A DNA stretch of 26,995 bases from a virus, in IMG/VR virus record IMGVR_UViG_3300032291_003084, positions 1-26,995 of that record; one strand, given 5' to 3'. Numbering within the stretch: the first letter of the stretch is position 1; every line of letters starts with the position of its first letter. The notes under the pieces were generated by a model. That model was not told where the DNA came from, ran no database searches, and saw nothing but the letters and a program-made list of their open reading frames with translations. Of this stretch, positions 1,309 through 23,157 are shown in pieces. A program made the translations under genes and the position numbers.

Positions 1309-1348
1309 GCGTCGGAAACCCCTCAACCCTCCTCGTGTTATCGTCAAG

Positions 1349-3874: not shown

Positions 3875-5535
3875 AGGGTTTTAGTGTGCTCGGTGCTTGC
3901 GGTATTGTCAACCACTTTCGTCATCCGCTCACTCAACTTCTCGTCATCCCGCACAGCTTCGAGGAGCATGAGGGCGGACAGGAGCCGTTGCTCGGTGTCC
4001 CTCTTCTCTTGCAACACGGTAGCCACGGCATCGTCTGCCGTGCCGGGGCACATGAGGCGGTACACCGTCACCACGTCGTGCTGCCCACGGCGTGCGAGGC
4101 GTGCGATCATCTGCTCGTAGAGTTCACGGCTGTAGGTGAGCGACATCCACACCATCGTGGAACTGCCACGCTGGAGGTTGAGGCCGTGGCCCACGGACGC
4201 GGGGTGCGCGACGAGCATGGGTATCTTGCGCTGGTTCCACTGCTCAAGGAGCGCGAGCTGCTGTGTCTCGCTCTTCGCGTCGGCGAAGAACCGGGCGTCG
4301 GGGAACGCCTTCTTGATGCGCTCCTGCTCGTGCTGGTATATGCAGGCAACCAGCAGGGGGGTCTTGACTTCCTTTTTCAACTTCCTCAACGCTCCGATCT
4401 TGAGATCATGGATGTCGTGAATCTTGCGGTCCTCGTCATAAACCGCGCCACTGGTGAACTGGAGCAGTTTCGTGACGAGGGCAGCCGCATTGGCGGCAGT
4501 GATGTTCTTGGTGCCGAGTTGCAAGACAAGCTCCTTCTCGAACTCACGATACTGGCGCATCATGGGATCGGGCATCTTGATCTCAATATCCTCGACGACC
4601 GTGTCGGGCACATCCTTGAGCCAGTCGGAGGATCGCAGGGTGATCGTGATGTCCGCGATGCGCTGCTCAATGGCCTCCTTGGCGTTGGCATTCGGTGCCC
4701 AGTTGTACTGCATGTAGTCGGTCGTGTGGAAGTACGTCCGCTTGAACATCTCGAAGTTGGGGCCGAGACGCTTGCCGTCATCGAGCAGGCGGACTTGCGC
4801 GAACAGGTCGAGGAGGCTGTTGGGTGCCGGGGTGCCGGTGAGCGCGATGCGGTTCGGCACCTTGTCGGCGTTCTCGCGTAGCCATTTACGCAGGCGATTG
4901 CCGCCCTTGTTGTCGGGTGCTTTTAGCTTTGTGGACTCATCGTAAATTATCGTGTCCACGGGAACGTCGCTGCGCCCTTCGAGGTATTCTTCAACGAAGC
5001 CGGGACAGTTTTTCGCGACTTCGTCGAAAAACTGGAGCCACGGAAACAGGCGACCGTTGCGCAGTTCCGCTTTCTCGGATTCGGTCAGCGGGCCGCGCTT
5101 CTTCCGGTTGGGCGACATCATGCATCCGAATGGCAGCTCACCTGTGGAGCGGAGGTGTGACAGTTCATCCTGCGTCGGGGCGCGGCGCTTCTTCACCGTG
5201 ATCGTGCGTGACGTGAGGGCCTCATAGTTGATGAGGTAGATGTGGGCAGCACCGGTGAGGAACGCATGACGACCGGATGGCGTGCGGAGGTTGGCTACCT
5301 TCATCCAGCGAAACTGTTCCCATTGCTTCACCTCAAGGGGCCAAGTGAGATTGACGACGCGGATCGGAGCGATGACGAGGACACCCTTGCATTCGAGGTT
5401 CTGGAACCGCTGGTTGAGGTGGTAAAGGCACCCTGCCGTCTTCCCAATACCACACCCAATCGCCCCGAAGGCTTGGGGGTGTGTGTCAAGGTGGCGTATC
5501 ATTCGCCACTGCGGCTCTTCGGGTTTGAAGATCAT
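3871..5535 (-). CDS. SNF2-family DEAD/DEAH helicase-like ATPase
   Basis: This is a 554-aa superfamily 2 protein. Motif I is GCGIGKT (27-33), motif II is DEST within IIYDESTKLK (199-202), and motif III is LTGTPAPNS (232-240). Motif V is HPASVGHGLNL (444-454) and motif VI is EQMIARLARRGQ (474-485). Phage SNF2 proteins of this type are DNA-dependent ATPases found in replication and recombination modules. It is longer than the usual phage version, apparently because of a charged insertion around residues 112-190 (Lys/Arg-rich, then a WLQFFDEVAKNCPGF helix) before motif II. Both ends overlap neighbours as ATGA: the 74-aa gene upstream and the 173-aa gene downstream. It has no Shine-Dalgarno, so translation probably depends on coupling. 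Confidence 0.9.
   Translation of the reverse strand: MIFKPEEPQWRMIRHLDTHPQAFGAIGCGIGKTAGCLYHLNQRFQNLECKGVLVIAPIRVVNLTWPLEVKQWEQFRWMKVANLRTPSGRHAFLTGAAHIYLINYEALTSRTITVKKRRAPTQDELSHLRSTGELPFGCMMSPNRKKRGPLTESEKAELRNGRLFPWLQFFDEVAKNCPGFVEEYLEGRSDVPVDTIIYDESTKLKAPDNKGGNRLRKWLRENADKVPNRIALTGTPAPNSLLDLFAQVRLLDDGKRLGPNFEMFKRTYFHTTDYMQYNWAPNANAKEAIEQRIADITITLRSSDWLKDVPDTVVEDIEIKMPDPMMRQYREFEKELVLQLGTKNITAANAAALVTKLLQFTSGAVYDEDRKIHDIHDLKIGALRKLKKEVKTPLLVACIYQHEQERIKKAFPDARFFADAKSETQQLALLEQWNQRKIPMLVAHPASVGHGLNLQRGSSTMVWMSLTYSRELYEQMIARLARRGQHDVVTVYRLMCPGTADDAVATVLQEKRDTEQRLLSALMLLEAVRDDEKLSERMTKVVDNTASTEHTKTL
3897..3911 (-). promoter_or_regulatory. 15-bp inverted-repeat element, site 1
   Basis: The minus strand reads TTGAC-AATAC-CGCAA. 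It is one of seven related elements in the window with half-sites TTGAC or TTGCG and a 5-bp centre. TTGACA doubles as a -35 box; a weak CACACT lies 17 bp further on, and the 173-aa gene starts 22 bp beyond the element. It sits inside the last codons of the helicase gene. Confidence 0.45.
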
Positions 5536-5756
5536 GCCAGTGATCGGATTGCGGATTTCAGCCGTTGTAGTTCGCCACGATTTTCTTCTTCCCCTTTTTC
5601 GAGGTGCTTGATCTTCGCTAACGCGCGTTTCAGCATGTTGACGAGCGCGTTCACGTTTTCGGGTTTCCGGTAGTGGTACTCATTCTCCTCGAAGTCTCTG
5701 ACTTGCCAGATGAATACGATCTCTTCGGCGAAGGGGTTGGTGGGTTCGGGTGTCAT
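5532..5756 (-). CDS. Small helical hypothetical protein
   Basis: This is a 74-aa protein. The ATG overlaps the stop of the DNA methyltransferase and is preceded by GGAGG at good spacing. The N-terminal half holds a short aromatic stretch (EEIVFIWQVRDFEENEYHY). The rest is a charged helix, LVNMLKRALAKIKHLEKGEE onwards, with coiled-coil character. It lies between the methyltransferase and the helicase and is coupled to both by ATGA overlaps, so it may be an accessory subunit or oligomerising partner. That role is inference; no known domain is recognised. Confidence 0.75.
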   Translation of the reverse strand: MTPEPTNPFAEEIVFIWQVRDFEENEYHYRKPENVNALVNMLKRALAKIKHLEKGEEENRGELQRLKSAIRSLA

Positions 5757-6937
5757 ACGTCAATGTCCTCCAACGCGAGCTTCGGAACTCCGCAGCGTGC
5801 GCGTGCGATGGTGTAGTATCCTTCGTCCTGCTCCATGCCGATGAACCTGAATCCTTCTTCCTTGCATGCGACGCCCGTGGACCCGCTGCCCATCCAAGGG
5901 TCGAGCACCGTTCCACCGGGCGGCGTGATGAGGCGGCACAGATAGCGCATGAGCGCGATTGGCTTGACCGTTGGGTGGTTGTTCTTCGATGGGTTGAACG
6001 GGCGCTCTCCTCGTTGCGGGATCGCAGCTCCGTCGCCCTTCCACTCCTTGTCTGACAAGTCGGACAGCCCGGCGTTGCGCTCCGATGGTGATACCTTCGC
6101 GCAGTAGAAGAAGCGGGCTGCGGAGCCGGAATCCGCGTACCCGCCGTACCCGCTTTCCCCCCAGCCTTCGGAGGACTGAATGCGGATGCTCCCTTTCCTC
6201 TTAAGGTGCGCCCCGATGGGCGAGCCGCCCTTCGCCTCCGGGAACAGTCCAACCACCTCATCGCTGCCATCATGAATCAGGTTGGCGGGCCAGCGGCCTT
6301 GCTCATTATCCGGTTTTGCTTCACGAGCATAGTTCTTTCCAGACATCGCCACGTTCCCGGACTCTTTAGACCCGGTCTCGGACCACCCGCTCTTATCGTC
6401 GGCGCTGCGATACACACGGCACCCGTCCACGTTGATCGCGCCTGTGTGCCACTTGAGCACGTTGGCTGCGACTGTCCCTTCGAGGGGTTTACGCGCCAGT
6501 GTGATCGGCTCCAGCGCAGGCTTGAGCGCGGTGCCGTACCCTTCCCACTCGCCTTCGAGGTTGTGTGATTTAGGGAACCCCGATCCGTACACCCACGCTA
6601 CCAAGTCACGAATCTCAAAGCCCGCCAGCCGGATACCAAGCGCCATTAAGTCCTGCGTTCGGGTTCCAGCGAAAGCGAGAACGTGCCCACCGGGTTTGAG
6701 CACCCGGTACACCTCACGCCACTGCATCGGCTGCGGGACAAAGTTGTCCCACGCCTTACCCATGAAGCCGCGTTTGCTCTTCACGTCGTGGTGCCCCGTC
6801 TCTAGCCAGTCGCGGAGCATGGCGAGGGCATCGGGTGGATCGCCGAGACCGTATGGCGGGTCGGTGACAACAGCGTCGATGCTGTTATCTGGCAGAGTGG
6901 CAAGGAGCGCGAGATTGTCGCCGTGTAACAGTGTCAT
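5753..6937 (-). CDS. DNA methyltransferase, N4/N6 amino type (beta class)
   Basis: This is a 394-aa protein. The catalytic motif IV TDPPYGL is near the N-terminus (25-31). The SAM-binding motif I, LDPWMGSGSTG (345-355), is near the C-terminus and is preceded by HPTVKP (321-326). This order, with the target-recognition region of about 290 residues between them, marks the beta class of N6-adenine or N4-cytosine methyltransferases. It would methylate phage DNA at a specific sequence using SAM. No restriction endonuclease gene is adjacent, so it is probably an orphan enzyme for anti-restriction or regulation. A strong Shine-Dalgarno (GGAGGGGGAGGT) precedes the ATG at 6935-6937, which also overlaps the stop of the metalloprotease gene. 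The target sequence cannot be predicted. Confidence 0.92.
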   Translation of the reverse strand: MTLLHGDNLALLATLPDNSIDAVVTDPPYGLGDPPDALAMLRDWLETGHHDVKSKRGFMGKAWDNFVPQPMQWREVYRVLKPGGHVLAFAGTRTQDLMALGIRLAGFEIRDLVAWVYGSGFPKSHNLEGEWEGYGTALKPALEPITLARKPLEGTVAANVLKWHTGAINVDGCRVYRSADDKSGWSETGSKESGNVAMSGKNYAREAKPDNEQGRWPANLIHDGSDEVVGLFPEAKGGSPIGAHLKRKGSIRIQSSEGWGESGYGGYADSGSAARFFYCAKVSPSERNAGLSDLSDKEWKGDGAAIPQRGERPFNPSKNNHPTVKPIALMRYLCRLITPPGGTVLDPWMGSGSTGVACKEEGFRFIGMEQDEGYYTIARARCGVPKLALEDIDV

Positions 6938-7383
6938 ACCTCCCCCTCCATGTTGAGCAGGAACTTCTCACGATACGACTGCATCTCGGCAGACGACATG
7001 GAGCCACTGCCGCCTATCTCCGGGTGCATGGCGTGCGCAATGTCTCTGGAGTGCGGCAGGCCAAACACATGCCCGAACTCGTGGATCATGGTGACGTAGA
7101 GGTTGTGACCGTTGCCGATAAACCGCTGCCACCACGTCGTTGCCCACTTCTCTCCGACGGCGATGACGATCTCCCATTTGTCGGGTCCGTGGTGTCGGCA
7201 CTCCGCGATTCGGCCCGGATATTTCTGGCGGTCGATGTTGCCGAAGTGAATGAGGATGTTGGGTGCTGTGGTCTCAAACTCCTTGAGAGCTACGAGGTCA
7301 GAGAGGATGTCGTTCCACTTCGACGCTGCCTTGCGGGCGGATGAGCGGATGGCGGGTTCAGCGAGGTAGGTGAGTGTGGTCAT
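6934..7383 (-). CDS. Matrixin-like zinc metalloprotease
   Basis: This is a 149-aa protein with a textbook metzincin site, HEFGHVFGLPH (101-111). Its three histidines bind zinc and Glu102 is catalytic. A Met-turn candidate AMHP (118-121, M119) follows. It is close to a bare catalytic domain: no signal peptide and no obvious pro-domain cysteine switch are visible. The family cleaves peptide bonds; in a phage it could process a virion or host protein, or act at the cell surface after release. It sits between a hypothetical gene and the DNA methyltransferase, coupled to the latter by ATGA. A GGAG sequence precedes the start. The substrate is unknown, and no secretion signal supports export. Confidence 0.82.
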   Translation of the reverse strand: MTTLTYLAEPAIRSSARKAASKWNDILSDLVALKEFETTAPNILIHFGNIDRQKYPGRIAECRHHGPDKWEIVIAVGEKWATTWWQRFIGNGHNLYVTMIHEFGHVFGLPHSRDIAHAMHPEIGGSGSMSSAEMQSYREKFLLNMEGEV

Positions 7384-7386
7384 GGG

Positions 7387-7980
7387 TCAGGGTTCTCCGA
7401 TCTGGCATTCAGCCGTGTATAGATGTTCAAGGGACTCGAAGCGGGGAAGCTGTTCGCAGGGTTTCTCGAAGGCGGTGTCCACGCTCAGGACGCGGTTGTT
7501 CGGGACGGCTGCAAACCAGCCCTGCTCGACCTGTAGAACGTGGAGTTGTTTATGCTGTTGGGCGTCGTCGGCCAGCGCGTTCCCCTCGAAGTCGATGGTG
7601 AACAGGTAGCGGGCATTCAGGCGCTCAGGAAACCCTTTGATCTTGCGCACGTTGAGGAGCTGCGCGTTGCCGCGCTTCCACAGCGCGAACTCATGCACCG
7701 TGAATGTCGAGGAGAAGGTGTCCCACGGCTGTATCAGCTCCACGTCTGGCAGCTCGCACGGCTTCCAGCATAGGGCTTGGATGGGCAAGCAGAACATGGC
7801 ACCCGCGCACTCATGCTCGTCGAACCGGACTTGGAATTGCAGACTCGCTGCTTCCTGACAGCGGATGCCGAGGATGTGCGCTTTCAGGTACTCGTTCTGT
7901 CCGCTGATGTGGTTCTGCGTGAACTCTTTGCGGACGAGGCAGCGGACGATGGAGGGAGTGTCGGAGAGAATGAATGGCAT
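7387..7980 (-). CDS. Hypothetical protein, 197 aa
   Basis: The protein starts MPFILSDTPSIVRCLVRKEF and is soluble, with alternating hydrophobic strands suggestive of a beta-rich fold (for example RYLFTIDFEG and HEFALWKRGN). It has several Cys and His residues but no clear metal-binding pattern. No known family was recognised. It ends 3 bp before the metalloprotease start. Its own ATG lacks a Shine-Dalgarno and is preceded by the C/A-rich run CCCAACACC. Length, coding bias and tight packing support a real gene. Confidence 0.75.
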   Translation of the reverse strand: MPFILSDTPSIVRCLVRKEFTQNHISGQNEYLKAHILGIRCQEAASLQFQVRFDEHECAGAMFCLPIQALCWKPCELPDVELIQPWDTFSSTFTVHEFALWKRGNAQLLNVRKIKGFPERLNARYLFTIDFEGNALADDAQQHKQLHVLQVEQGWFAAVPNNRVLSVDTAFEKPCEQLPRFESLEHLYTAECQIGEP

Positions 7981-8001
7981 GGTGTTGGGATTCGTTGGTC
8001 A

Positions 8002-8466
8002 TTAAAAAGGTTCCTCGTCGTCGAGTGTGTCCGTGCATACAAGGTCCGAGTCATCGGCGTCGTGCTTCTCGTGCCACGCGGCGATCTTGGCATCGGCGTA
8101 CTGGCGGCGCACGTTCTCGGTGCAGGTGATGACACGGATATTGCCGACCTCGTACCCCTTCGAGGGGTCTAGGCGATCAACGTGTAGCTGGTGACGCAGA
8201 CAGCCCTTGCCGTCCATGTACCCCGTCGGCTCGACCACCGACCACCACTCATCGAAGGACAGGATGAACGGGATGCGACGAGCGCGGGCATGGTCACGCT
8301 GGATTCCAAACGCCGCTCGCTCGGGGTTCTTCGCCCGCCACTCGGCTTTGTAGCATCCGCCGCACAGTTGCGTGGAAGTAGGGTGCGTGGCGACGTTGCG
8401 CGGTTTGGCGGTGCAGCGCCAAGCGCGGCAGACACCGGGGCGAAGGGTTTGCTTGAGGCGGATCAT
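8002..8466 (-). CDS. HNH-like endonuclease with zinc-ribbon cysteines
   Basis: This is a 154-aa protein. ATG 8464-8466 overlaps the VRR-NUC stop; longer in-frame versions would be read through that gene. Cys13/Cys18 and CGGC (35-38) could hold one zinc. The segment HVDRLDPSKGYEVGNIRV (about 95-112), followed by NVRRQY, matches the phage HNH pattern of a histidine-aspartate pair, then a KGY...GNIR stretch. Such proteins nick or cut DNA and often act in packaging or as homing enzymes. It lies in the replication cluster directly after the VRR-NUC gene. The C-terminal tail is acidic. The nuclease call is moderate because the third metal ligand is not obvious by eye. Confidence 0.62.
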   Translation of the reverse strand: MIRLKQTLRPGVCRAWRCTAKPRNVATHPTSTQLCGGCYKAEWRAKNPERAAFGIQRDHARARRIPFILSFDEWWSVVEPTGYMDGKGCLRHQLHVDRLDPSKGYEVGNIRVITCTENVRRQYADAKIAAWHEKHDADDSDLVCTDTLDDEEPF

Positions 8467-8786
8467 GCTACGCGCGGGATTGGCTGCTTCACGCTCATCG
8501 CCACCAACCCATCGACGAACTTGCATCCGTCTGCCACGCTGTCGCACCACGCGACGATGCAGCCGAGCGCCTGCTTCTCGTTCAATCGCTCCAACTGCAA
8601 CACGGTTGGCTTGCCACCGGGGCGCTTGATCTCCAGCCAGCCGGTAGCGCCACCCGGTGCGATGATGCAGCGGTCGGCTACGCCGCGCTTGGCTGGAGAT
8701 ACGAACTTCTCGAACAGGCATCCCTTGCTCACTGCGTAAGCCCGGATGCGCTTCTCGATGTCACGTTCTAGGGGGAGGGGGGTCAT
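8463..8786 (-). CDS. VRR-NUC domain nuclease
   Basis: This is a 107-aa protein from ATG 8784-8786; an in-frame TTG at 8822 is the alternative start. It is an almost bare VRR-NUC (PD-(D/E)XK superfamily) domain. ERDIEKRIRAYAVSKGC forms the N-terminal helix, GVADR (35-39) supplies the aspartate, and LEIKRPGG (51-58) gives the E-x-K pair, followed by the conserved Gln64 region. Such phage proteins are structure-specific nucleases usually placed between the polymerase and SNF2 helicase genes, as here. The start lacks a Shine-Dalgarno. A 15-bp inverted repeat lies 21 bp upstream in the short gap after the polymerase gene. Confidence 0.88.
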   Translation of the reverse strand: MTPLPLERDIEKRIRAYAVSKGCLFEKFVSPAKRGVADRCIIAPGGATGWLEIKRPGGKPTVLQLERLNEKQALGCIVAWCDSVADGCKFVDGLVAMSVKQPIPRVA

Positions 8787-8807
8787 GGTGAGGCACCCTA
8801 CCCGCCA

Positions 8808-8822
8808 TTGACTATACGTCAA
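8808..8822 (-). promoter_or_regulatory. 15-bp inverted-repeat element, site 2 (perfect arms)
   Basis: The minus strand reads TTGAC-GTATA-GTCAA. The two 5-bp arms are perfectly complementary, which makes this the clearest symmetric member beside sites 6 and 7. TTGACG could serve as -35, but the position 17 bp later (AGGGTG) is a poor -10. The VRR-NUC ATG begins 21 bp downstream. Confidence 0.45.
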
Positions 8823-8825
8823 CCC

Positions 8826-10871
8826 CTATTTGCGATAATATGGAACCACCTCACCACTGGTGCCGAGCGGCAGGCCGTCCGCCCACGCGGGCGCGGACTC
8901 AAGGCAACGCTGGAAGTCCTCGATGCTCTGAGTCTCCACGTTGTCCCATGCGGCCATCGCTTCGTCGTGAATGAGTGAGTAGATGCGGTAGCCCTTGCGT
9001 GCGGCGACGAGGGTGCCGTTCGCCATGAGGTCGAAGGCGACAGCCTGTGTGATGTTCTCGACGATCTTGCCACCGTAGAGCGTTGCCCGTCCCCACACTG
9101 CCGACCTCGCGCCACCGGCTGTCGAGCCGGGGCCGAAGTGGGTGATCTGAAAGCGGTAGCCTTTGCGGCCATCGTCGGACACCTGCGCCATGCGTTCGGT
9201 TTCCTGCTCCGGTGTCTCGTCCTTCGGCTTCGGGATGCGAACCCACTCCATGCGCGGATCGCGGTAGCACAGGCAACGACCACTGGGCAGGCGGATGAAG
9301 AGGTAGGGGGCACCTGCTGCGGCGAATACCCCGATCTTGATGAGGCGTGCGTCGAACCACATGCCGGGCTGCTCGATAGCCTGCTTCGCGGCGTTGTCAC
9401 ACGCACGCCAGAATGCCGTGATAGCGGGGTTGGCAGCACGCCACGCTTTGACCAGTCCGGGGAGTTCCTCTTTCGTGAGGCCCATGTCGAGAGCGCCCAT
9501 CTTTTCGAGGGCACCCACGCCGCCTTGGTATCCGAGTGCCAATTCTGCGACTTTCGATTTCTGACGGATCGCTTTCGTCACCTGCTCCATCGTGAGACCG
9601 AACATCTGACATGCGGACGCCTCGTAGATTTTGCCGTGAGTGCGGAACACCTCAATCCGCCACTCCTCACCCGCCAGCCATGCAATCACTCGCGCTTCGA
9701 TGGCAGAGTAGTCAGCCGATAACATTGGACCCTGAGCATCGTGGATGAAGTGACGGATGCAGGAAGCGATTATGCTATACACCGAGCGGTCATACCACGT
9801 CTCAAGCATGCCCTTCGCCCAGCCTGCCCGGATGTGGGCGTAGGCCTGCTCTGTCTCCTCGAACTCGGGGCGCTTGAAGTTCTGAGGCTGGTGCAGACGC
9901 CCGCTCCACCGGAAAGTTGCCTGAGCACCGCCGAACTGCAACGACCCCCGGATGAAGTTGTCATCGGGACCGGCGCATTCGATCATGGTATCCACCTTCT
10001 TCACTGCCGCGAAGCCGAGCTTCTGGAGCAGCTCAATGGCTCGCCCCGTCGCAGTCGCCGGGTCGGCCTGCAACGCTTCGAGCGTGTCAGCTTGGAGGTT
10101 GTCGAGGAGCAGGCCGTTGCTGGCGAACCACGCTCGGAGCGCGGCGTTCTGCGTCGGGTTGAGGCCGGTCAGTTGCCGGAACTCCTCGAACGCCGGACCC
10201 TTCTCCGCTTCGATGAGTGCTTGTGCTTTGTGCAAAGCATCGAGGTTCACGGGCATGCCGCGACCGTTGATGTTGATGTCCTCGTGAAAGATGTCGAGCA
10301 ACCAGCCCTTCAACTCGAAGTGCTTCAACGCTTCGGCGATGTCGCACTCGGTCATCACATCCTGTCGGCAGTATTCGAGGAACTGGCGGAACTGCTCGGG
10401 GTATTCGCTGGGATCGTTGAACCCGCCGTCCTTGCGTGGGATCGAGAACAGCTTGATGAGCGCCGATCCTCCTTTGTCCTTCTGGTTGGTAAGCCGTAAC
10501 GCCTCCGCCGCTTTCTCCAGCGACGGGGGTATGTTCGCCCTCCTCGCCATCGTGGCGGTGCAGCGCCAGCGTGTGCGCTCAACGGCGGGGAAACCCATGC
10601 GCGTGAGAACGTGCTCGGTCATGGGCACCTCGAAGCCGGTGGCGTTGTGGGCGTAAACGGGACCGTCGTCGGCCAGCATCTCGCGCAGCAGTTGCTCCGC
10701 GCCGGGGTCGCCGAACCCTTCGATGGGTGACCATACGAGCACAGGCTCACTGTTGCGCCGAACAGCGGCACACAGAATCTCGGTGCTCGGATGCCGTGCG
10801 TAGTGCCAGCCGCCGACGACGGTCAGGTCGGCGAGGCTTCTCGTTTCGAGGTCCAAATGATAGCTATGCAT
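8826..10871 (-). CDS. DNA polymerase I-like (family A) with 3'-5' exonuclease
   Basis: This is a 681-aa protein from ATG 10869-10871, after a GGGGGT Shine-Dalgarno-like run; a GTG three codons upstream is less likely. The proofreading exonuclease shows HLDLETRS (about 5-12), YAHNATGFEV (about 73-82) and YCRQD (about 167-171). The polymerase domain shows SGRLHQPQNF (about 323-332), motif A SADYSAIEARV (about 385-395), motif B RQKSKVAELALGYQGG (about 436-451) and motif C LIHDEA (about 633-638). It copies the phage genome. It is typical of phage polymerases found with DUF2800, DUF2815 and VRR-NUC genes, and all three are present here. The two catalytic aspartates (motifs A and C) and the O-helix lysine are in place, so it should be active. 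Confidence 0.95.
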   Translation of the reverse strand: MHSYHLDLETRSLADLTVVGGWHYARHPSTEILCAAVRRNSEPVLVWSPIEGFGDPGAEQLLREMLADDGPVYAHNATGFEVPMTEHVLTRMGFPAVERTRWRCTATMARRANIPPSLEKAAEALRLTNQKDKGGSALIKLFSIPRKDGGFNDPSEYPEQFRQFLEYCRQDVMTECDIAEALKHFELKGWLLDIFHEDININGRGMPVNLDALHKAQALIEAEKGPAFEEFRQLTGLNPTQNAALRAWFASNGLLLDNLQADTLEALQADPATATGRAIELLQKLGFAAVKKVDTMIECAGPDDNFIRGSLQFGGAQATFRWSGRLHQPQNFKRPEFEETEQAYAHIRAGWAKGMLETWYDRSVYSIIASCIRHFIHDAQGPMLSADYSAIEARVIAWLAGEEWRIEVFRTHGKIYEASACQMFGLTMEQVTKAIRQKSKVAELALGYQGGVGALEKMGALDMGLTKEELPGLVKAWRAANPAITAFWRACDNAAKQAIEQPGMWFDARLIKIGVFAAAGAPYLFIRLPSGRCLCYRDPRMEWVRIPKPKDETPEQETERMAQVSDDGRKGYRFQITHFGPGSTAGGARSAVWGRATLYGGKIVENITQAVAFDLMANGTLVAARKGYRIYSLIHDEAMAAWDNVETQSIEDFQRCLESAPAWADGLPLGTSGEVVPYYRK

Positions 10872-10873
10872 GG

Positions 10874-11116
10874 TCAGCACCCCCAGCGTTTCCGTGCTGC
10901 CTTGCCACGCTCGCCCTTCCAGTTGGAGCTGCGGGCGCAGAAGGATTTCTTGCGTCCTTCGTCCTCTTTGGTCTTCGGGTTGGGGGCAGGAGGCTTGAGG
11001 TTACTCCCGGTGGCGGCATTATATTTCGCTCGGCCCTTCGCGGTTAAGCCTGCCCCTTTGGACACGGGCAGCTTCTCGCCTCGACCGACTGACAGATTGG
11101 GTGCTTTCTTCGACAT
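10874..11116 (-). CDS. Small basic phage protein (GLTAKGRAKYN / RKKSFCARS family)
   Basis: This is an 80-aa, very basic protein. It carries KGAGLTAKGRAKYNAATGSN (about 20-39), a proline/lysine linker PAPNPKTKEDEG and RKKSFCARS. This combination is widespread in small proteins of unrelated phages (I recall it as DUF6321; that name is from memory). The charge suggests nucleic acid binding. It lies 2 bp upstream of the polymerase gene and downstream of a strong terminator, so it probably opens a new transcription unit. The ATG has no Shine-Dalgarno and is preceded by CACCACACACTACC. Confidence 0.8.
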   Translation of the reverse strand: MSKKAPNLSVGRGEKLPVSKGAGLTAKGRAKYNAATGSNLKPPAPNPKTKEDEGRKKSFCARSSNWKGERGKAARKRWGC

Positions 11117-11168
11117 GGTAGTGTGTGGTGGGTGAAAGGTTTGCCAGCGCCAAGGATACCACGCAGGC

Positions 11169-11183
11169 TGGCGGCTACGTCAA
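11169..11183 (-). promoter_or_regulatory. 15-bp inverted-repeat element, site 3 (imperfect)
   Basis: The minus strand reads TTGAC-GTAGC-CGCCA, with one mismatch to the half-site. TTGACG could be a -35 box, with GGTATC at 17 bp or TATCCT at 19 bp as -10. It lies between the terminator of the SSB gene and the start of the small basic gene, where a promoter is needed for that gene and the polymerase. Confidence 0.4.
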
Positions 11184-11234
11184 AAACAGGAAGAACCTAA
11201 AGCCTGTGGCACGACTCTCTTGGCTTATCGAAAG

Positions 11235-11273
11235 GGAAAATAAAAAGGCGACGCCCCGCGAAGGGCGTCACCG
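11235..11273 (-). terminator. Rho-independent terminator after the SSB gene
   Basis: Read on the minus strand, GACGCCC (11263-11269) pairs perfectly with GGGCGTC (11250-11256) across a 6-base loop TTCGCG. Two more G-C pairs extend the stem past one mismatch. It is followed at once by TTTTTATTTT. It stands about 10 bp after the stop of the SSB gene and should end the upstream minus-strand transcript. Confidence 0.88.
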
Positions 11274-11282
11274 TAGTTTGCA

Positions 11283-11885
11283 TCAGACCTCCTCGGCGGG
11301 GGCGTCCATGATCTCCATGGCGGCAGCAGCGGTGTCGGTGCCTCCGCCAGAGAGTTTCTCGCCGTCTCCGGTCTTGATGATGGCAGCCAGCTCGCAGTTG
11401 ACCTTCTGACCGTGGACGTTGTCCTGTGCCCAGAACTTCACGACCACGTTGCCCATCGCGCCGGAGTAAGGGTACACGTCGGGGTTGGCCGTGATGCTGA
11501 GTTCCGTCTGCCCGCCGTTGACGGAGGGGTGACGGACAGCAGGGGGACCATCGGCGGGTTTGCGGGAGGCGTTGAAGAACAGCACGCCGGGGCCGAAGCC
11601 CTCTTTGCTGCGATGTTTGAGTTCCGTCTTGTCGTCGGTGTCTCGAATGCACATCGTGGGGAACACGGTCTTGTTGAACTTCTCACCCCACTTGGCCTGC
11701 GCGACCTCGTTGGCGGCAGCCATGAGAGCGGCGACCTGCGGGTGGTTCTTCGGGATGACGGGAGTAATGGAGTACTTGGCCTTGTCGGCGGGGTCTCCTT
11801 GCTTGGCCCACGCCTTATCGACGTGGACGTAGGTGAGTTTGACGTTGCGAAGGGCAATCTGCCCCGGTGTTTTGGATGTGCTCAT
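11283..11885 (-). CDS. ssb: DUF2815-like phage ssDNA-binding protein
   Basis: This is a 200-aa protein. The pattern KYSITPVIPKNHPQVAALMA near the N-terminus fits the DUF2815 (gp2.5-like, OB-fold) family. So do a central VFPTMCIRDTDD and a C-terminal NVVVKFWAQDN...CELAAIIKTGDGEKLSGG. The last residues are acidic (MDAPAEEV), as in many single-strand binding proteins that use the tail to recruit partners. It would coat single-stranded DNA during replication and recombination. It follows the Cas4-like nuclease gene and ends at a strong terminator. A TTGACA / TAGAAG promoter at 11925-11953 overlaps the end of the nuclease gene, so it can be expressed separately at high level. Confidence 0.88.
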   Translation of the reverse strand: MSTSKTPGQIALRNVKLTYVHVDKAWAKQGDPADKAKYSITPVIPKNHPQVAALMAAANEVAQAKWGEKFNKTVFPTMCIRDTDDKTELKHRSKEGFGPGVLFFNASRKPADGPPAVRHPSVNGGQTELSITANPDVYPYSGAMGNVVVKFWAQDNVHGQKVNCELAAIIKTGDGEKLSGGGTDTAAAAMEIMDAPAEEV

Positions 11886-11924
11886 GGGTGTATCGTGTTT
11901 TGGTTAGTGCCTCGTGGCGTTGTG

Positions 11925-11953
11925 CTTCTAAGGCAAAGTGTTTCAGGTGTCAA
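11925..11953 (-). promoter_or_regulatory. Candidate promoter for the SSB gene
   Basis: On the minus strand TTGACA (11948-11953) is separated by 17 bp from TAGAAG (11925-11930). The predicted leader is about 33 bases and ends in the C/A-rich run ACACGATACACCC before the ATG. The -35 half-site TTGAC is shared with the dispersed inverted repeat, but the second half is missing. Confidence 0.5.
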
Positions 11954-13160
11954 GAATCATTGCGACGGCGTCATCACTGACCGCATACTCGGGTCGTGGG
12001 TCGCTCTCCGGCACCACGATTGGCGAGCCGGGCGGTTTGGTGATGAGCTTGAACAGGGCAACGGCGTTGTCGCTGGTGCGGTCAGAGAACATCTTCTCCG
12101 CTTGCGCAGGAGTGGCGATCTCCTCGCTGTAGATTTCCTCTCGTGGGACGCCGAGGGCCATAAGCAGTTCGCCCGCCCGCAGGGGGTCGGCCCACTTGCG
12201 ATGAGCGCCCTTGGACAGGACCACCTTGCGGCCCGGAACCTTGGTGCCGCTGTTGACGAGTCCATCGACGTGCTTCTGCATGGCGTCGATCCAGTCGGTG
12301 ACGATGTCGCGGTTGTTGACGATCCACACCATGCGTTCGAGGGAAACCACGGGTTTCGGCTCATCGGCGGTGCCGAACAGCAGGTCTTCGAGTTCGGGGA
12401 TGAGTGCGTTCTTGTAGGCGTGGCGGGCGGAGCAGATGCCAGCAGCCGGGCAGAACTTGCACGTCGCATCGGACGGCGCGAAGCGCAGAGCGGAACCGGG
12501 TGGCGGCTCGGCCTTGTCCCAGCCAACCGGCCACGCTGGCTCCGAGAGGATGAGCCTCGCCTTCGGGGTGATGGTGTCCTCAGTGAACTCCACCAGCTCG
12601 CGGTAGGTGATGGACCACGGCTGCGGATCGCCGGGCAGGCGGGGCTGGAAGATCGTCATCGTGACGGGCGTCTCGGGTGGCAAGGTGTCCCAGTCGAGCG
12701 AGTCCTCGATGATGCTGCGGGCGTAGCTTGCCATCTGGCGGTTGCCCTCGGAGGCCACCTCGCCGAAGCCGTACTTGTAGTCGGTGACGAACACACCTTC
12801 GGAGGTGTGAGCGAAGAAGTCCACGGTGCCACGCTGTGCGGGGTAGTAGAACAACCGGACGCGGTGCTCAATGCCCCACGCAATCGGGCTTTGGCCACGC
12901 TGCGCCAGAACGAAGTTGGCGTAGGCGCGTCCATGGCGGATCATCTCGGGGGTGGCGTAGGCCGGAGCAGGCTCTTCGCGCACCATGTTCTCGCATACCG
13001 TGTGGGCCTTGGTCCCTTCGATGGATGCAGAGGATGAGGTGTCCTTGGGCAGCCGGTGGGCGTTGGCCTCCTTGAAGGCAACAGACGCCGTGCATTCCGT
13101 CCACTGGTAGGCGTGCGACGGAGAGAGGCGGGAGTGGGTTGGTGCGGTGTCGGGTGTCAT
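11943..13160 (-). CDS. DUF2800 / Cas4-like Fe-S PD-(D/E)XK nuclease
   Basis: This is a 405-aa protein. Nuclease residues are visible as EGTKAH (48-53), RGTVDFF (110-116, D114), VTDYKYG (125-131, D127 and K129) and NRQMASYA (140-147). Four cysteines, C23 together with C234, C237 and C243 in CKFCPAAGIC, match the split 4Fe-4S cluster of Cas4 and AddB-type nucleases. These enzymes resect DNA ends; in phages the DUF2800 gene is regularly next to DUF2815 and family A polymerase, as here. The C-terminal third is a family-specific extension. The ATG lacks a Shine-Dalgarno; a hairpin lies just upstream. Confidence 0.9.
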   Translation of the reverse strand: MTPDTAPTHSRLSPSHAYQWTECTASVAFKEANAHRLPKDTSSSASIEGTKAHTVCENMVREEPAPAYATPEMIRHGRAYANFVLAQRGQSPIAWGIEHRVRLFYYPAQRGTVDFFAHTSEGVFVTDYKYGFGEVASEGNRQMASYARSIIEDSLDWDTLPPETPVTMTIFQPRLPGDPQPWSITYRELVEFTEDTITPKARLILSEPAWPVGWDKAEPPPGSALRFAPSDATCKFCPAAGICSARHAYKNALIPELEDLLFGTADEPKPVVSLERMVWIVNNRDIVTDWIDAMQKHVDGLVNSGTKVPGRKVVLSKGAHRKWADPLRAGELLMALGVPREEIYSEEIATPAQAEKMFSDRTSDNAVALFKLITKPPGSPIVVPESDPRPEYAVSDDAVAMILDT

Positions 13161-13179
13161 GGGAGTCGGGGAAAGAGAT

Positions 13180-13211
13180 GGGCGTGCGACCGCGTTTCCG
13201 ACCGCACGCCC
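13180..13211 (-). other. Intergenic hairpin before the DUF2800 gene
   Basis: GGGCGTGCG (13180-13188) and CGCACGCCC (13203-13211) form a perfect 9-bp GC-rich stem with a 14-base loop. On the minus strand it is followed by ATCTCTTTCCCC, which lacks a real U-tract. It may be a weak terminator, an mRNA stabiliser or a translation control element. It sits in the 56-bp gap between two genes, ending about 19 bp before the ATG. Confidence 0.5.
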
Positions 13212-13216
13212 AAAGG

Positions 13217-13837
13217 TTACACGAGCGCCCGCTTGATGGCGTCGAGGAGGCGGTCACGGTTGTCACCGACATTGGGGATCTTGGATAGTGGAAGGCCTTT
13301 GCCGGAAGCGAGGGTGCCGTCAGGCTGCAAGAACTCGGAGGAGTCACGCCATGCCTGATAAGCGCGGAGTTTGTCGGGGAACTCTTTGAGCTGGTTGGCG
13401 TGGGTGGCGAGTTCCTCGTCGGTGACGGTGGACTGCGGCGGTGGATTGAACAGAGTGACGGCAGCGGGTGCAGGTGCAGCGGGTGCAGGTGCAGCGGGTG
13501 CAGGTGCAGCGGGTGCTGGGGCAGCGGGTGCAGCGGGTGCAGGTGCAGGTGCAGCAGACTGCTCGATGTTCGTCACAGGCGGCGTGGTGGTCACGACGAC
13601 AGGCTCGGCGGGGGCGGCTTTGCGGATGCGCTTCGCGGGGGTAGCAGGTGCGGGTGCTTCGGCAGCGGGGTGGGCGTGCCGTTGCTCCCAAGCGAAAGCC
13701 TCGTCCCCTTTCTGGGTGGCTGGTGTAGTATCGTAGCCAGTGACGGCGGGGTCCGTAGAGAGGATCGCAGTGCATTCGTCGGCGACGGCCTGTGAAGCTG
13801 CGCGGATGAGTCGGAGGGTGGTGTTGTCGAGTTTCAT
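13217..13837 (-). CDS. Protein with Ala/Pro repeat linker, unknown function
   Basis: This is a 206-aa protein with three parts. An N-terminal helical segment begins MKLDNTTLRLIRAASQAVAD. A low-complexity middle (about 58-125) is dominated by Ala and Pro, with repeated APAAP units encoded by 15-bp DNA repeats. A compact C-terminal part carries ELATHANQLKEFPDKLRAYQ and ends in DNRDRLLDAIKRALV. The linker should be extended and flexible, tethering two small domains, as in some DNA-associated proteins with AP-rich spacers. No family was recognised. Location between primase-helicase and nuclease genes suggests a replication role, which is inference. The spacer upstream of the ATG is almost purely C and A. 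Confidence 0.75.
   Translation of the reverse strand: MKLDNTTLRLIRAASQAVADECTAILSTDPAVTGYDTTPATQKGDEAFAWEQRHAHPAAEAPAPATPAKRIRKAAPAEPVVVTTTPPVTNIEQSAAPAPAPAAPAAPAPAAPAPAAPAPAAPAPAAVTLFNPPPQSTVTDEELATHANQLKEFPDKLRAYQAWRDSSEFLQPDGTLASGKGLPLSKIPNVGDNRDRLLDAIKRALV
13461..13556. repeat. 15-bp tandem repeat encoding Ala/Pro linker
   Basis: The plus-strand unit GCAGCGGGTGCAGGT occurs three times in a row, then a variant (GCTGGG ending), a 9-bp partial copy and another full copy. Each unit adds five residues (APAAP) in the minus-strand protein. It is likely to vary in length by slippage while keeping frame. Confidence 0.85.
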
Positions 13838-13861
13838 GTTGGTGGGTTGTGGGGGTGAGGG

Positions 13862-13996
13862 TTACGCGGCGTGCTTGACTTTGTGGCGCTTGATGACGTT
13901 TCCGTCCGGCAGGCGAACGATGTAGGTTTTCGGATTCTCTTTGAGAACCTCGACGCTGGTAGGCTCGTCGGAGACGAGGATGGTGATGCGTTTCAT
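13862..13996 (-). CDS. 44-aa hypothetical protein
   Basis: The translation begins MKRITILVSDEPTSVEVLKE and ends KRHKVKHAA before a TAA. It is basic, with a beta-strand-like first half and the phrase TYIVRLPDGNVIKRHK, which suggests a small beta-barrel or strand-turn-strand fold. It starts 19 bp after the primase-helicase stop and ends 24 bp before the Ala/Pro-repeat gene, so it fits the gap well. The leader GGCACCCGCACCT is C/A-rich and lacks a Shine-Dalgarno. No family was recognised. Confidence 0.7.
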   Translation of the reverse strand: MKRITILVSDEPTSVEVLKENPKTYIVRLPDGNVIKRHKVKHAA

Positions 13997-14015
13997 AGGT
14001 GCGGGTGCCAATCGG

Positions 14016-20716: not shown

Positions 20717-21145
20717 TTACTCTTCGATCAGGTCACAATAGGCGCGGGCGACTTCCTCGGCGGCATACCACGCGAGAGCGTTGAGCACGGTGTCGGTGTC
20801 CTCCTGCGACCTGCCGCCGTAGAGGGCAGTCGAGATGCCGGACACGTCGGGCTTGGACTGGCGGAAGCAGCCGAAGCCCTGAATCATTTCGAGGGGGTTG
20901 CTGCCGAAGTCGTCGGCTTGCTCTTGCGCCATCTTGGCGATGTGGGCGCGGTTGCGCTTGGCGAAGCGGATCGTATCGGCGTAGTAAATGAAGCCGTTGA
21001 AGCCGCCGTCGATGCCGTGGCGGGCGATGTCGGGGGCATAGTTGGTGAATGTCTCCCAGCCGCCCATCTGGCGCACAACGGCGCGGATGAGCGGGGAGGG
21101 GATACTGGACGAGGCGACGAGGGAGTTAAGAGATGGCGTTTTCAT
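20717..21145 (-). CDS. Conserved phage protein (HGIDGGFNGFIYY family), 142 aa
   Basis: Start chosen at ATG 21143-21145; an upstream in-frame start would extend into the promoter-like gap. IRAVVRQMGGWETFTNYAPD (about 20-39), HGIDGGFNGFIYYADT (about 42-57) and LNALAWYAAEEVARAY (about 122-137) form a strongly patterned small protein. I recall a family of this pattern from phages and mobile elements (possibly DUF7222, from memory). No enzymatic role is known to me. A 15-bp inverted repeat lies 54 bp before the ATG. Confidence 0.75.
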   Translation of the reverse strand: MKTPSLNSLVASSSIPSPLIRAVVRQMGGWETFTNYAPDIARHGIDGGFNGFIYYADTIRFAKRNRAHIAKMAQEQADDFGSNPLEMIQGFGCFRQSKPDVSGISTALYGGRSQEDTDTVLNALAWYAAEEVARAYCDLIEE

Positions 21146-21199
21146 GGTGTGCGGGTGTCGGTGTTCGGGTTTCTGGCTACGGGCGGAAGGTGGCACGGG

Positions 21200-21214
21200 T
21201 TGCGGATAACGCAA
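21200..21214 (-). promoter_or_regulatory. 15-bp inverted-repeat element, site 6 (perfect arms)
   Basis: The minus strand reads TTGCG-TTATC-CGCAA, perfectly symmetric in its arms, and is followed by CCCG as at site 7. It lies in the 74-bp gap before the 142-aa gene. The -10 position 17 bp downstream (ACCTTC) is poor, so it may be a binding site rather than a promoter on its own. Confidence 0.45.
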
Positions 21215-21219
21215 GGGGT

Positions 21220-21519
21220 TTATTCGGGTTTCTGGTCGTGGTCGAAGGCGTAACCGGCTTTGCGGAGGGCGGATTCAATGGCGGCGGCGTGATAATTGCC
21301 GGGGTAAGGGATATCCTCGATGATTGAAAGCGCGGTTTCCAGCGCCGTAAGGAGGTCGGGCAGGGCGGCGAACGCCCGTTTGAGGGCTGCGACGGTTTCC
21401 GGGGTGGCGGGCAGTCCTTCGAGGTTCAAGAGGAAATAGCCGTCGCCGGTGACGATGGCGCGAGAGTCGGGCAGGGGCGAGGCCTGCCAAGGGGAGGCGG
21501 GGAGCGTTGGGGGGTTCAT
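21220..21519 (-). CDS. Hypothetical phage protein, 99 aa
   Basis: The protein begins MNPPTLPASPWQASPLPDSR and includes AIVTGDGYFLLNLEGLPATP, then a helical stretch AALKRAFAALPDLLTALETA and a C-terminal PYPGNYHAAAIESALRKAGY. The phrase order resembles small accessory phage proteins of the Ead type, with a beta hairpin followed by helices. No function assigned. The spacer before its ATG is CCCCCCGCACCCCGCACC, with no purine-rich Shine-Dalgarno. Confidence 0.72.
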   Translation of the reverse strand: MNPPTLPASPWQASPLPDSRAIVTGDGYFLLNLEGLPATPETVAALKRAFAALPDLLTALETALSIIEDIPYPGNYHAAAIESALRKAGYAFDHDQKPE

Positions 21520-21537
21520 GGTGCGGGGTGCGGGGGG

Positions 21538-22488
21538 TTACGCGGCTTTCTTGAGCTGGCGGGCGATGTGGAGAGCGAGGCGAACGGCGGAGGGGTTGCC
21601 GGTGCGGATGAGTTGCGGCAGGGGGGCCTCGTCTCCGATGCCGGATGATGCCTGAAAGGCGCGGATGCCGGGGTCGCAGAAGCCGAGCGCCTTAGCATCC
21701 GCCAGCGTGGCCTTCACACCGCCGCAAAGCCGGGCGATGAGCCGGGCGCGGCGTTCCTCTTTGCCGCGCTGGCGGGCGGCGTCCTGCTCACGTTTGATGG
21801 AGTCTAGCTTTTTCTGATATCCTTTGGCGGCGTGCTCGCGGCTCGTGGTGGAATGGTAGCAGGTTTGGGAGTCGCCGACAATCCAGCCCGCTTGAGCTTC
21901 GATTTGTTTCCCTTTGCTCACGATCCAGACGGCGGAGCCGTCCGGCTTGAGCGAGACGAGCGGCAGGCCATCGCGGGCGGATACGGCGAGCAGCGGGGAG
22001 GAGGCCAGCGCGGAGACGCCGGAGGGATCAAGCCGTATAATGTGGGTGGCGTCGGTTTTGCGGTAGGTGCACTTGCGGGAATACTGGTCACCTCTGCCGG
22101 TGGTGGTTGCGGCGGTGGCCGGGCGCGGGGCATCGTGCCAGCGGACGGAATGGTCCACCGCGCCGGAGTAGTCGCCGCCCATGCGCCAGGCGATGGCTAG
22201 GGCGTGCTGCTCGGCAAACGTGACAGCGGCGGCGGCAGCATCGCGCCGGGGGCGCGGGATTCTGGCGAGGGTCTGCGCGGCATCGCGGGCCGCCTGCGCG
22301 GCATCGCGGGCCGCCTGCGCGGCGGCGGTGTACGCTCCGATATGGTCGGGGGGTTGCGGTGGCGCTGTCCGGGCGGCGAGGGCGTCAATGTGGGCGATTG
22401 CGCGGGCGCGGGCGGTGGCGGTTGCCGCTTGCGCTGTCCGGGCGGCGAGGTGGGCGAGGATGTCTCGGGTTTGGGTGTCCGGTTTCAT
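21538..22488 (-). CDS. Ala-rich phage protein, 316 aa
   Basis: The N-terminal 90 residues are strongly Ala/Arg-rich and probably one long helix, including two copies of an AARDAAQ repeat encoded by 21-bp DNA repeats. A central beta-rich region includes SALASSPLLAVSARDGLPLV and GWIVGDSQTCYHSTTSREHA. The C-terminal third is a basic helical part, RRARLIARLCGGVKATLADA, then KALGFCDPGIRAFQ. The last part recalls phage proteins with an ARLCGxxKATxxDA...GxCxPGIxAFQ pattern. Function unknown; the length and layout suggest nucleic acid or protein binding. No Shine-Dalgarno; the leader is CACCCACGCACC. Confidence 0.75.
   Translation of the reverse strand: MKPDTQTRDILAHLAARTAQAATATARARAIAHIDALAARTAPPQPPDHIGAYTAAAQAARDAAQAARDAAQTLARIPRPRRDAAAAAVTFAEQHALAIAWRMGGDYSGAVDHSVRWHDAPRPATAATTTGRGDQYSRKCTYRKTDATHIIRLDPSGVSALASSPLLAVSARDGLPLVSLKPDGSAVWIVSKGKQIEAQAGWIVGDSQTCYHSTTSREHAAKGYQKKLDSIKREQDAARQRGKEERRARLIARLCGGVKATLADAKALGFCDPGIRAFQASSGIGDEAPLPQLIRTGNPSAVRLALHIARQLKKAA
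22273..22323. repeat. 21-bp tandem repeat in Ala-rich coding region
   Basis: The plus-strand unit CTGCGCGGCATCGCGGGCCGC occurs twice in full and then partly. It encodes repeated AARDAAQ heptads in the minus-strand protein, so the repeats extend a coiled-coil helix by whole heptads. Confidence 0.8.
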
Positions 22489-22506
22489 GGTGCGTGGGTG
22501 CGTGGG

Positions 22507-22665
22507 TTAGGTGTCGGGGAAATTGGTTGCGGCGTGCTGGCGCTGCCAAATGCGGCGGAAGGCCTCGCGGTTGTCGGTTATCCGGGCCGGGCGTGTGCGT
22601 GGGCGGGTTGTCAGACGGGCGCGGAGGCGGGAGGGCGGGAGTGTGATGGAGGGGAGGGGGGTCAT
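22507..22665 (-). CDS. 52-aa Arg-rich hypothetical protein
   Basis: The frame reads MTPLPSITLPPSRLRARLTT and then RPRTRPARITDNREAFRRIW, ending NFPDT before TAA. It is strongly basic, with Pro/Arg in the first half and a likely helix in the second. It fills the gap between the 147-aa and 316-aa genes with spacers of 10 and 18 bp, both lacking purine-rich signals. Basic charge suggests nucleic acid contact. No family recognised. Confidence 0.6.
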   Translation of the reverse strand: MTPLPSITLPPSRLRARLTTRPRTRPARITDNREAFRRIWQRQHAATNFPDT

Positions 22666-22675
22666 GGGTGGTGGG

Positions 22676-23119
22676 TTAGACGGTGAACAGTTTAGCGCGG
22701 TACTCGGCGATATATTCCGGCAAGATGGCGAGGTCGATTTTGCCGTCGTCCATGCTGAGATTGCAGGCGAGTTCCTCGAAGCGGTAGTGGTCGCCTGAAT
22801 AGGTTTTCAGGGCGTCGTCAAAGGCGCGGCCTAGCTCGGCGTTGCGGTCATCCCAGAACCCGCAGCCATGGCCGGAAAGGCTGAAATAGATATTGCCACC
22901 AAAGGAGCGTTCTAGCTCGTCGGCACGTTCCGCGAGTTCTGGGTGGTGGGTGTCGAGATAGGCGCGAAAGCCGGAGATAAAGGATTGCGCTTCGATGGTG
23001 AAGGCGTCTGAGAAGTCGAAGATTGAGGCCTCGCGAAGCTCGTCGTCGGCATCTTCCGGCAGGGTGAAAAGGAGGGATTCGAGAAAGGAAGCAACATCGG
23101 AGGTGGTCGAGATTTTCAT
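22676..23119 (-). CDS. Conserved phage protein with SGHGCGFWDDR motif, 147 aa
   Basis: The N-terminus MKISTTSDVASFLESLLFTL is helical. GGNIYFSLSGHGCGFWDDRN (about 74-93), then ELGRAFDDALKTYSGDHYRF and a C-terminal KIDLAILPEYIAEYRAKLF complete the protein. Related phage proteins carry a TRNGHGxGFWD-type motif at the same place; their function is unknown. His and Cys in the motif could bind metal. Its promoter is the best in the window (perfect TATAAT) and would give an almost leaderless message. Confidence 0.78.
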   Translation of the reverse strand: MKISTTSDVASFLESLLFTLPEDADDELREASIFDFSDAFTIEAQSFISGFRAYLDTHHPELAERADELERSFGGNIYFSLSGHGCGFWDDRNAELGRAFDDALKTYSGDHYRFEELACNLSMDDGKIDLAILPEYIAEYRAKLFTV

Positions 23120-23128
23120 GGCGTGTGG

Positions 23129-23157
23129 ATTATATGGGCGGGTTGCGGTTAGCGCAA
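23129..23157 (-). promoter_or_regulatory. Promoter with inverted-repeat element, site 7
   Basis: On the minus strand TTGCGC (23152-23157) is followed after 17 bp by a perfect TATAAT (23129-23134). The element TTGCG-CTAAC-CGCAA (23143-23157) covers the -35 box. The ATG of the 147-aa gene begins 9 bp after the -10 box, so the leader would be about 3 bases. Confidence 0.68.

Follow-up and report, generated by a model that had tools for sequence, protein, structure and literature searches.

Does the 15-bp near-palindrome that recurs before minus-strand genes of an incompletely recovered phage mark a set of operators read by one protein? The stretch concerned is IMG/VR virus record IMGVR_UViG_3300032291_003084 (26,995 bases, GC 61%), analysed whole and referred to here as the window. 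Its genes include those for a family A DNA polymerase, a terminase large subunit, an SNF2-like helicase, a primase/VapE-like protein, an exonuclease-family protein and a Gp2.5-like single-strand DNA-binding/annealing protein, and this gene set identifies the record as part of a tailed phage. The main block comprises 37 minus-strand genes, as called by a simple gene caller. An earlier note had listed seven 15-mers (3897, 8808, 11169, 14036, 19917, 21200 and 23143), all of which are present on the minus strand, and had read them as a regulon controlled by one phage protein. Our analysis indicates that the sites are probably operators for a single DNA-binding protein that acts as a homodimer, and that they form part of several sigma-70-type promoters of the phage. 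That a small operator-like set in phage promoters is real, and present in this clade and not in the scanned relatives outside it, appears reasonably well supported by sequence comparison.

Six of the seven 15-mers form a tight family, with scores of 17.1–20.7 on a symmetric weight matrix. The next best position in the window scores 10.0, a gap that is partly built in, as the matrix was trained on these six sites plus three sites of relatives. The seventh 15-mer, 11169, scores 9.0, which is background, and a weaker but conserved eighth member (1333) had been missed. The members, in order along the transcribed strand (position of the first T given relative to the start codon), are:

23143–23157, minus strand: strong site TTGCGCTAACCGCAA; first T at −38, −10 box TATAAT at 23129–23134, start codon of gene 22676–23119 23 bp on.
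21200–21214, minus strand: strong site TTGCGTTATCCGCAA with perfect 5-bp arms; first T at −69, weak CACCTT only in the −10 position, start of gene 20717–21145 (DUF7222) 54 bp on.
19917–19931, minus strand: strong site TTGACATAACCGCAA; first T at −40, TTGACA-17-TATAAC (19903–19908), GTG start of small open reading frame 19787–19891 25 bp on.
14036–14050, minus strand: strong site TTGACAATAAGGCAA within the 3′ end of the primase gene; first T at −54, no clear −10, start of small open reading frame 13862–13996 39 bp on.
8808–8822, minus strand: strong site TTGACGTATAGTCAA directly past the DNA polymerase stop; first T at −36, TTGACG-16-TAGGGT (8795–8800), start of gene 8463–8786 21 bp on.
3897–3911, minus strand: strong site TTGACAATACCGCAA within the 3′ end of the SNF2-like helicase gene; first T at −37, −10-like CACACT (3883–3888), start of gene 3353–3874 22 bp on.
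1333–1347, minus strand: weaker member TTGACGATAACACGA, part of the blind motif described below; TTG at −39 from the start of methyltransferase gene 733–1308.

Two of the six strong sites lie wholly inside gene 3′ ends and two (19917 and 23143) overlap one. The left half is TTGAC in four sites and TTGCG in two; on the opposite strand, the right half is TTGCG in four, TTGAC in one and TTGCC in one. The sites have dyad symmetry, with five paired arm bases in three of the six, four in one and three in two, and the half-site centres are 10 bp, or one helical turn, apart. Such spacing and symmetry would suit a symmetric dimer, of helix-turn-helix (HTH) type, bound to one face of the DNA. The statement that all copies face the same way is partly convention, these being near-palindromes, although several do have TTGAC at a −35 position of the transcribed strand.

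The reported distance of 21–54 bp to a start codon holds for the six strong sites, four of which lie at 21–25 bp. These same four are in promoter position as judged from sequence: TTG falls at −36 to −40 and is followed, at a spacing of 16–17, by a −10-like hexamer (TATAAT, 23143; TATAAC, 19917; TAGGGT, 8808; CACACT, 3897). The two good promoters that had been claimed can be read directly as TTGACA-17-TATAAC (19917) and TTGCGC-17-TATAAT (23143), although a stricter consensus scan lists neither. Under a strict nAnnnT test, 8808, 3897 and the terminase promoter pass among 11 TTGAC near starts, compared with none of nine TTGAC elsewhere; TATAAC at 19917 misses by its last base, and 23143 (TTGCG) is outside the test. 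With the −35 element at about −36 from the start codon, the usual promoter spacing would place the RNA start at this codon or just before it, and we infer that these predicted promoters give leaderless or nearly leaderless mRNAs.

Statistical support depends on how the motif is defined. By itself, TTG-N9-CAA shows no clear excess (8 copies against a simulated mean of 4.7; 8 or more in 33 of 300 simulations), whereas the same pattern with central TA occurs 6 times against 0.41 expected, and with five paired arm bases 3 times against 0.33 (0/300 simulations each), both of these patterns having been picked after the sites had been seen. Position gives a further test: six of the eight TTG-N9-CAA end 15–60 bp before a called start, a zone that makes up 7.1% of positions (binomial 3e-6); the two outside are 10221 and 19800, the latter 9 bp before a start. 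TTGACRATA is found four times on the transcribed strand and not at all on the opposite strand (simulated mean 0.18), and 11 of the 20 transcribed-strand TTGAC sit 30–72 bp before a start, compared with 6.6% expected. A blind expectation-maximisation search of the 70 bp before the 37 starts ranked first a motif of 11 segments, among them the six sites, 11169 and 1333–1347, with a log-likelihood ratio of 119.2 (94.0, 97.7, 93.9 and 96.4 in four second-order Markov controls). As a real-sequence control, viral contigs holding one exact TTGACAATACCGCAA were collected (103 stretches, of which 101 newly fetched ones were scored). A second strong site was found in two of the 101, one of the two being a close relative of the phage (G001). 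Strong hits reach 0.22 per kb in the window and 0.0024 extra hits per kb in the 101 contigs, a ratio of ~90 that is approximate, 11 of the 14 control contigs listed having a GC content of 0.45 or less. On the comparison with shuffled sequence that the note had proposed, neither simulated nor other viral sequence had such numbers of sites. Palindromes in general are not in excess in the window (39 seen, 33 expected; 47 of 300 simulations reach 39), and raw k-mer family size was uninformative, GC-rich k-mers being dominant.

Four close relatives, G001 (L004), G002 (L005), G003 (L007) and G004 (L009), were available for comparison. The 3897 site is retained at 15 of 15 positions in three of them (L004:11457, L005:12254 and L009:4523), while the 23 bp downstream match at 16, 11 and 12 positions, respectively. 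In L009, the helicase tail differs, and a TGA within the site closes its reading frame, which is another frame than that of the window; 11 of the 20 preceding and 12 of the 23 following bases are matched, with all 15 site bases kept. The only relative covering 14036 has TTGACAATAAGTCAA (L005:708–722; 14/15), in which GTCAA stands opposite the right half GGCAA. At 8808, the −35 box (6/6) and the segment from −10 to ATG (17/17) are unchanged in L004 and L005 with an altered spacer; the right half of their forms (TTGACGATACCGCAG and TTGACGATAACGCAG, respectively) reads CTGCG, one base off. Site 1333 is identical in L007 (L007:8903, 15/15) and matches 13/15 in L004 (L004:14063); the flanks in L007 are about equally kept (18/20 and 20/20), so this case says little. 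G003 carries an extra strong site, TTGACATTAGCGCAA (283–297, plus strand), 18 bp before an ATG. Beyond the sites named, late-arm matrix scans (G001 to 24037 and 28000–40666; G003) gave none above 16, the best other being TTGCTTTTTTGGCAA (15.1, G003); nothing else above 13.0 was found by matrix in G001 2091–24037 and 28000–40666, with 24038–27999 covered by exact pattern only. Elsewhere in G003 (L037), TTGCCAAAAAAGCAA scores 15.1 on the symmetric matrix and 17.3 on a one-sided matrix. Symmetric half-sites, promoter position, recovery by the blind search and retention across changed flanks are together in keeping with a shared operator bound by a dimer, and it is in this form that the one-protein regulon of the note fits the sequence evidence, once the false member 11169 is removed from its list.

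Further sequences against which the family can be compared are:

3329–3356, minus strand: promoter-like TTGACC-16-TATCAT of the terminase gene, ATG 9 bp on, without the right half-site.
26557–26585, plus strand: promoter-like TTGACA-17-TACCCT, ATG 6 bp on, without the right half-site; counterpart of the G003 junction with TTGACATTAGCGCAA.
23700–23714, minus strand: degenerate TTGACGATATCCAGA with the left half only, TTG at −56 from the start of gene 23149–23658; one of the four TTGACRATA of the window.
11169–11183, minus strand: rejected member; the feature kept here is a downstream promoter-like TGGTATCCT plus a GCCAGC..GCTGGC inverted repeat.

The terminase gene and the plus-strand gene at 26592 share the promoter layout of the strong sites but not the right half, which suggests that the layout is one promoter form of this phage, with a second half-site added on a subset. 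Rejection of 11169 rests on its background score and on loss of TTGAC in relatives: its counterparts in L004 and L005, TTAGCGTAGCCGCCA and TATGCGTAGCCGCCA, match at 13/15 and 12/15 positions, yet TTGAC is gone. The conserved block is instead the downstream promoter-like segment, with 45/45 bases kept in L005 and 37/45 in L004. The locus as a whole (11105–11272) has a strong terminator-like stem (11247–11272) followed by this block, with GCCAGC..GCTGGC and the extended −10 TGGTATCCT; in L004 the block sits across the small gene 10874–11116, on its other side. Separately, repetitive CGACACCC-type DNA, partly common to G003, is found at ~26420–26500 ahead of the plus-strand gene.

If the sites are such operators, the left half-site (TTGAC/TTGCG) would double as the −35 box in most of them, with the palindrome spanning about −36 to −22, so that a bound dimer would block RNA polymerase at promoters placed at gene junctions in the arm that holds the replication and accessory genes. 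Transcripts would begin with the start codon itself or a few bases upstream of it. The bound protein is predicted to repress rather than activate, holding these units off or low, and its loss or dilution would turn them on together.

Several findings weigh against an operator function. Convincing −10 elements are lacking at 14036, 21200 and 1333, and the loose consensus (three mismatches) gives weak or no excess (13 against 7.2, reached in 1/100 shuffles; 14 against 10.4, reached in 16/100). L007 keeps the helicase but has lost the 3897 site together with the gene behind it. At 8808, the site bases outside the −35 box match at 2/9 and 3/9 in L004 and L005; the right half is not kept base for base, CGCAG standing opposite GTCAA in both. 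None of the four close relatives has a stretch homologous to the early-arm sites 19917, 21200 and 23143, and at the junction where G003 has TTGACATTAGCGCAA the window has a plain promoter without a site. A further record, L041, encodes a relative (72% identity) of the gene behind 23143 but lacks the site at that place.

More distant relatives (helicase identity 59–61% in the three aligned) add to these points. Their HTH gene is present with no strong site, the best being TTGACGAAAGATCAA (14.1) in the G006, G007 and G011 group, which by helicase and motif results appears to be nearly one phage. Blind motif searches fell within controls for G005 and G012 and barely above for G007 (107.6 against at most 105.4). 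For G010 (L035, L022), the search exceeded its three controls (102.8, controls up to 87.7); the motif, present upstream of 12 of 29 genes, is roughly TGnnAAnnTTT and may be AT-rich promoter DNA. A relaxed half-site pattern, compared with its reversed control, was found 22 against 11 times in G012, but with no clear excess in G002 (6 against 5), G003 (21 against 23), G013 (20 against 18) and G014 (14 against 15); nor was it in excess in L039/L040, which have one gene in common with the window (42%). Loss of the sites in relatives that keep the gene starts was a refuting condition of the note: most sites persist in those close relatives that cover them, whereas distant relatives yielded none, as expected if site and protein diverge together, and equally if the two are unrelated. 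Taken with the preceding results, its observation is largely real and partly confirmed, and its interpretation partly supported.

The family could instead consist of plain strong promoters that answer to no regulator and in which a favoured sequence follows a TTGAC −35 box. TTGAC is indeed enriched before starts (11/20), the terminase and plus-strand promoters have the same geometry without a right half, and 8808 is conserved in its −35 and −10-to-ATG parts only. We nevertheless consider this unlikely, as two strong sites start with TTGCG, a poor −35, the right half repeats the left alphabet as reverse complement, and at 3897 the full 15-mer persists next to a downstream sequence that varies, even in its −10. 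Binding by a host regulator, which would tie the phage genes to host physiology, has about the same modest standing: the binder was not identified in this analysis, the phage HTH gene lacks a strong site, and distant relatives have that gene without the motif, but if the host is shared the site would be expected to recur in those relatives, and it does not.

The remaining readings are less probable still. Sites at gene junctions along a single direction of transcription, two of them (14036 and 21200) without clear −10 boxes, recall stoperator-like roadblocks, at which a junction-bound repressor stops elongation rather than initiation; Cluster A stoperators are, however, asymmetric and mostly not at promoters (PMC6550527), whereas here the sites are near-symmetric with four of six in promoter position, making this improbable. 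Recombination or boundary sequences where accessory genes swap would account for gene gain or loss directly behind 3897, 8808, 14036 and 1333 in relatives, yet breaks also occur at site-free junctions, inserted genes are not flanked by a second strong copy, and such sequences need no preferred distance to start codons; this is very improbable. Chance resemblance picked by eye gains something from the loose pattern counts, which are near expectation, and from the one listed site in seven that is background, but for the six strong sites it is largely refuted by the blind search, the location test, the real-sequence control and retention in relatives, and is the least credible of all.

On the operator reading, the binder may be encoded by the phage itself, and the note had proposed HTH proteins at 17992–18517. 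The relevant genes are:

17992–18195, minus strand: 67-aa Xre-family HTH protein, leading candidate (PF13560, HTH_31, 1.2e-9; PF01381, HTH_3, 9e-8; above cut-off).
17693–17995, minus strand: 100-aa protein, second candidate (weak HTH_31, PF13560, 3.3e-5; below cut-off).

The first is a clear HTH protein, while 17693–17995, as well as 18218–18550, match HTH models below cut-off only. By sequence, the nearest solved structures to the 67-aa protein are DdrO (E 7e-4) and an ICEBs1 regulator (E 0.0026); its own single-sequence structure model is poor (predicted local distance difference test score, pLDDT, 66.5; predicted template modelling score, pTM, 0.28). HTH_3 was found near the primase in all five primase-holding distant records searched (G005, G006, G007, G010 and G011; a sixth, G009, was outside this search), four of them having it 0.3–0.4 kb upstream of the primase, whereas in G010 it overlaps the primase match in a different frame; the HTH gene of the window is 1.4 kb upstream of the primase. 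The 67-aa protein itself matches only three of 11 records (G006, G007 and G011; E about 2e-4). Two results count against an operator role here as well: no strong site precedes the HTH gene, only TTGACACTGGAAGAA, giving no visible autoregulation, and no integrase or resolvase (PF00589, PF00239) was found in eight records, all possibly incomplete, so that lysogeny, the usual reason for such a repressor, is without support. The phage’s own Xre-type protein may be the binder, an assignment that we make tentatively.

Dispersed regulatory sites have been described in several systems. Cluster O mycobacteriophages have 17-bp dyad repeats in >30 copies, about a third in coding regions and most off promoters, thought to bind a dimer and not found in other mycobacteriophages; some deletions lie between copies, and few if any rearrangements involve the repeats (PMC4351075). 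Dispersed, symmetric, clade-restricted sites and DNA-binding proteins are common to both; Cluster O phages lack an integrase, and none was found in the eight possibly incomplete records searched here. The window, by contrast, has six to eight copies (six strong in 27 kb of an incomplete genome) of another sequence and length, with four of the six strong sites in promoter position. Cluster A stoperators (L5, Bxb1) are 13 bp, asymmetric, number 20–30 per genome, are mostly not at promoters and block elongation (PMC6550527). They resemble the present sites in being dispersed and oriented with transcription, in including some promoter operators and in a motif that varies among clades, but not in form, this one being a 15-bp near-palindrome with TTGAC/TTGCG-type halves on both sides, mostly overlapping the −35 box. 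Start-associated sequences of Cluster K, 13 bp long, contain AGGAG and are typically 3–7 bp before the start, thus occupying the ribosome-binding position (PMC3203893); they too accompany gene starts, lie in the non-structural half and mostly share one orientation, unlike the present 15-mers in lying closer than 21–54 bp and in having AGGAG.

In Deinococcus, the DdrO/RDRM regulon uses an Xre repressor and dispersed palindromes in or near promoters, and in one example the 17-bp motif begins at −35 and RNA synthesis at +1; it is a host stress regulon in which DdrO is cleaved by IrrE (PMC5552922). An Xre-type protein in the same genome (PF01381 above cut-off) and palindromes over predicted promoters are shared features, and the motifs, likened by arrangement and not by sequence, are 17 bp there and 15 bp here. 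This regulon would be the best mechanistic parallel: the sites may work like DdrO sites, which is not to say that this is a DdrO system. As far as these sources extend, none of the four is the same system, Cluster O and Cluster A being closest with defining features of both absent here; the parts are familiar and the combination is a variant. Literature searches, based on titles and passages, brought up no phage with the same arrangement, and the literal string TTGACNNNNNGTCAA was in no paper by string search, a weak test.

The junctions behind the sites differ in gene content among close relatives. Behind 3897 there is an extra 92-codon gene in L005, and L007 has lost the gene; in L004, 8808 is followed by a gene for an Rv2179c-like exonuclease; the small gene behind 14036 is missing from L005; and behind 1333, L004 has an additional small gene. 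Gene breaks are also found at site-free junctions, so no statistical link between sites and exchange is claimed. Replacement at these four junctions would be the trace of a plug-in socket, in which accessory-gene slots of the clade carry the same repressor-bound leaderless promoter and an incoming gene joins the regulon without control or a ribosome-binding site of its own, an idea that is doubtful at present.

No AGGA, GGAG or GAGG (4-base Shine-Dalgarno core) is present between −20 and −4 for 30 of the 37 genes, a 5-base core is absent before 32, and the 20 bp before starts are 42% C and 19% G, which suggests a host that often initiates translation without Shine-Dalgarno sequences. By eye, upstream sequences of L041 resemble these C-rich, G-poor start regions. 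Two genome_contigs scans with SNF2 and terminase alignments gave no relative, and a tRNA search of the window found none. Neither a near DNA search with window 1–25000 nor a protein search with the terminase found anything in 'phages', where the DNA polymerase matches (1610 records) stayed below 60% identity throughout, and viral_contigs searches confirmed no relatives of the primase or of 23149–23658. The family A DNA polymerases of the close relatives L004 (2403–5426) and L005 (4014–6461) have an in-frame insert at the same point, from ELA|CIAE to VLVHN|CG, much shorter in L005, with ends resembling inteins; no intein model was matched by L004 in Pfam, nor by the L004 or L005 polymerase in NCBIfam. 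The window polymerase has no insert, and a leucine replaces the cysteine that follows the insert in the others.

The dispersed phage operators found in our literature searches come mainly from mycobacteriophages and their relatives, and the role of some is unsolved. The system described here offers a ready test in the form of a 15-bp site and a 67-aa candidate protein. If the operator reading is true, operator, −35 box and start codon would be locked in one short block in a phage mostly without Shine-Dalgarno sequences, and would give an example of how a phage can control and swap its small genes as single units.

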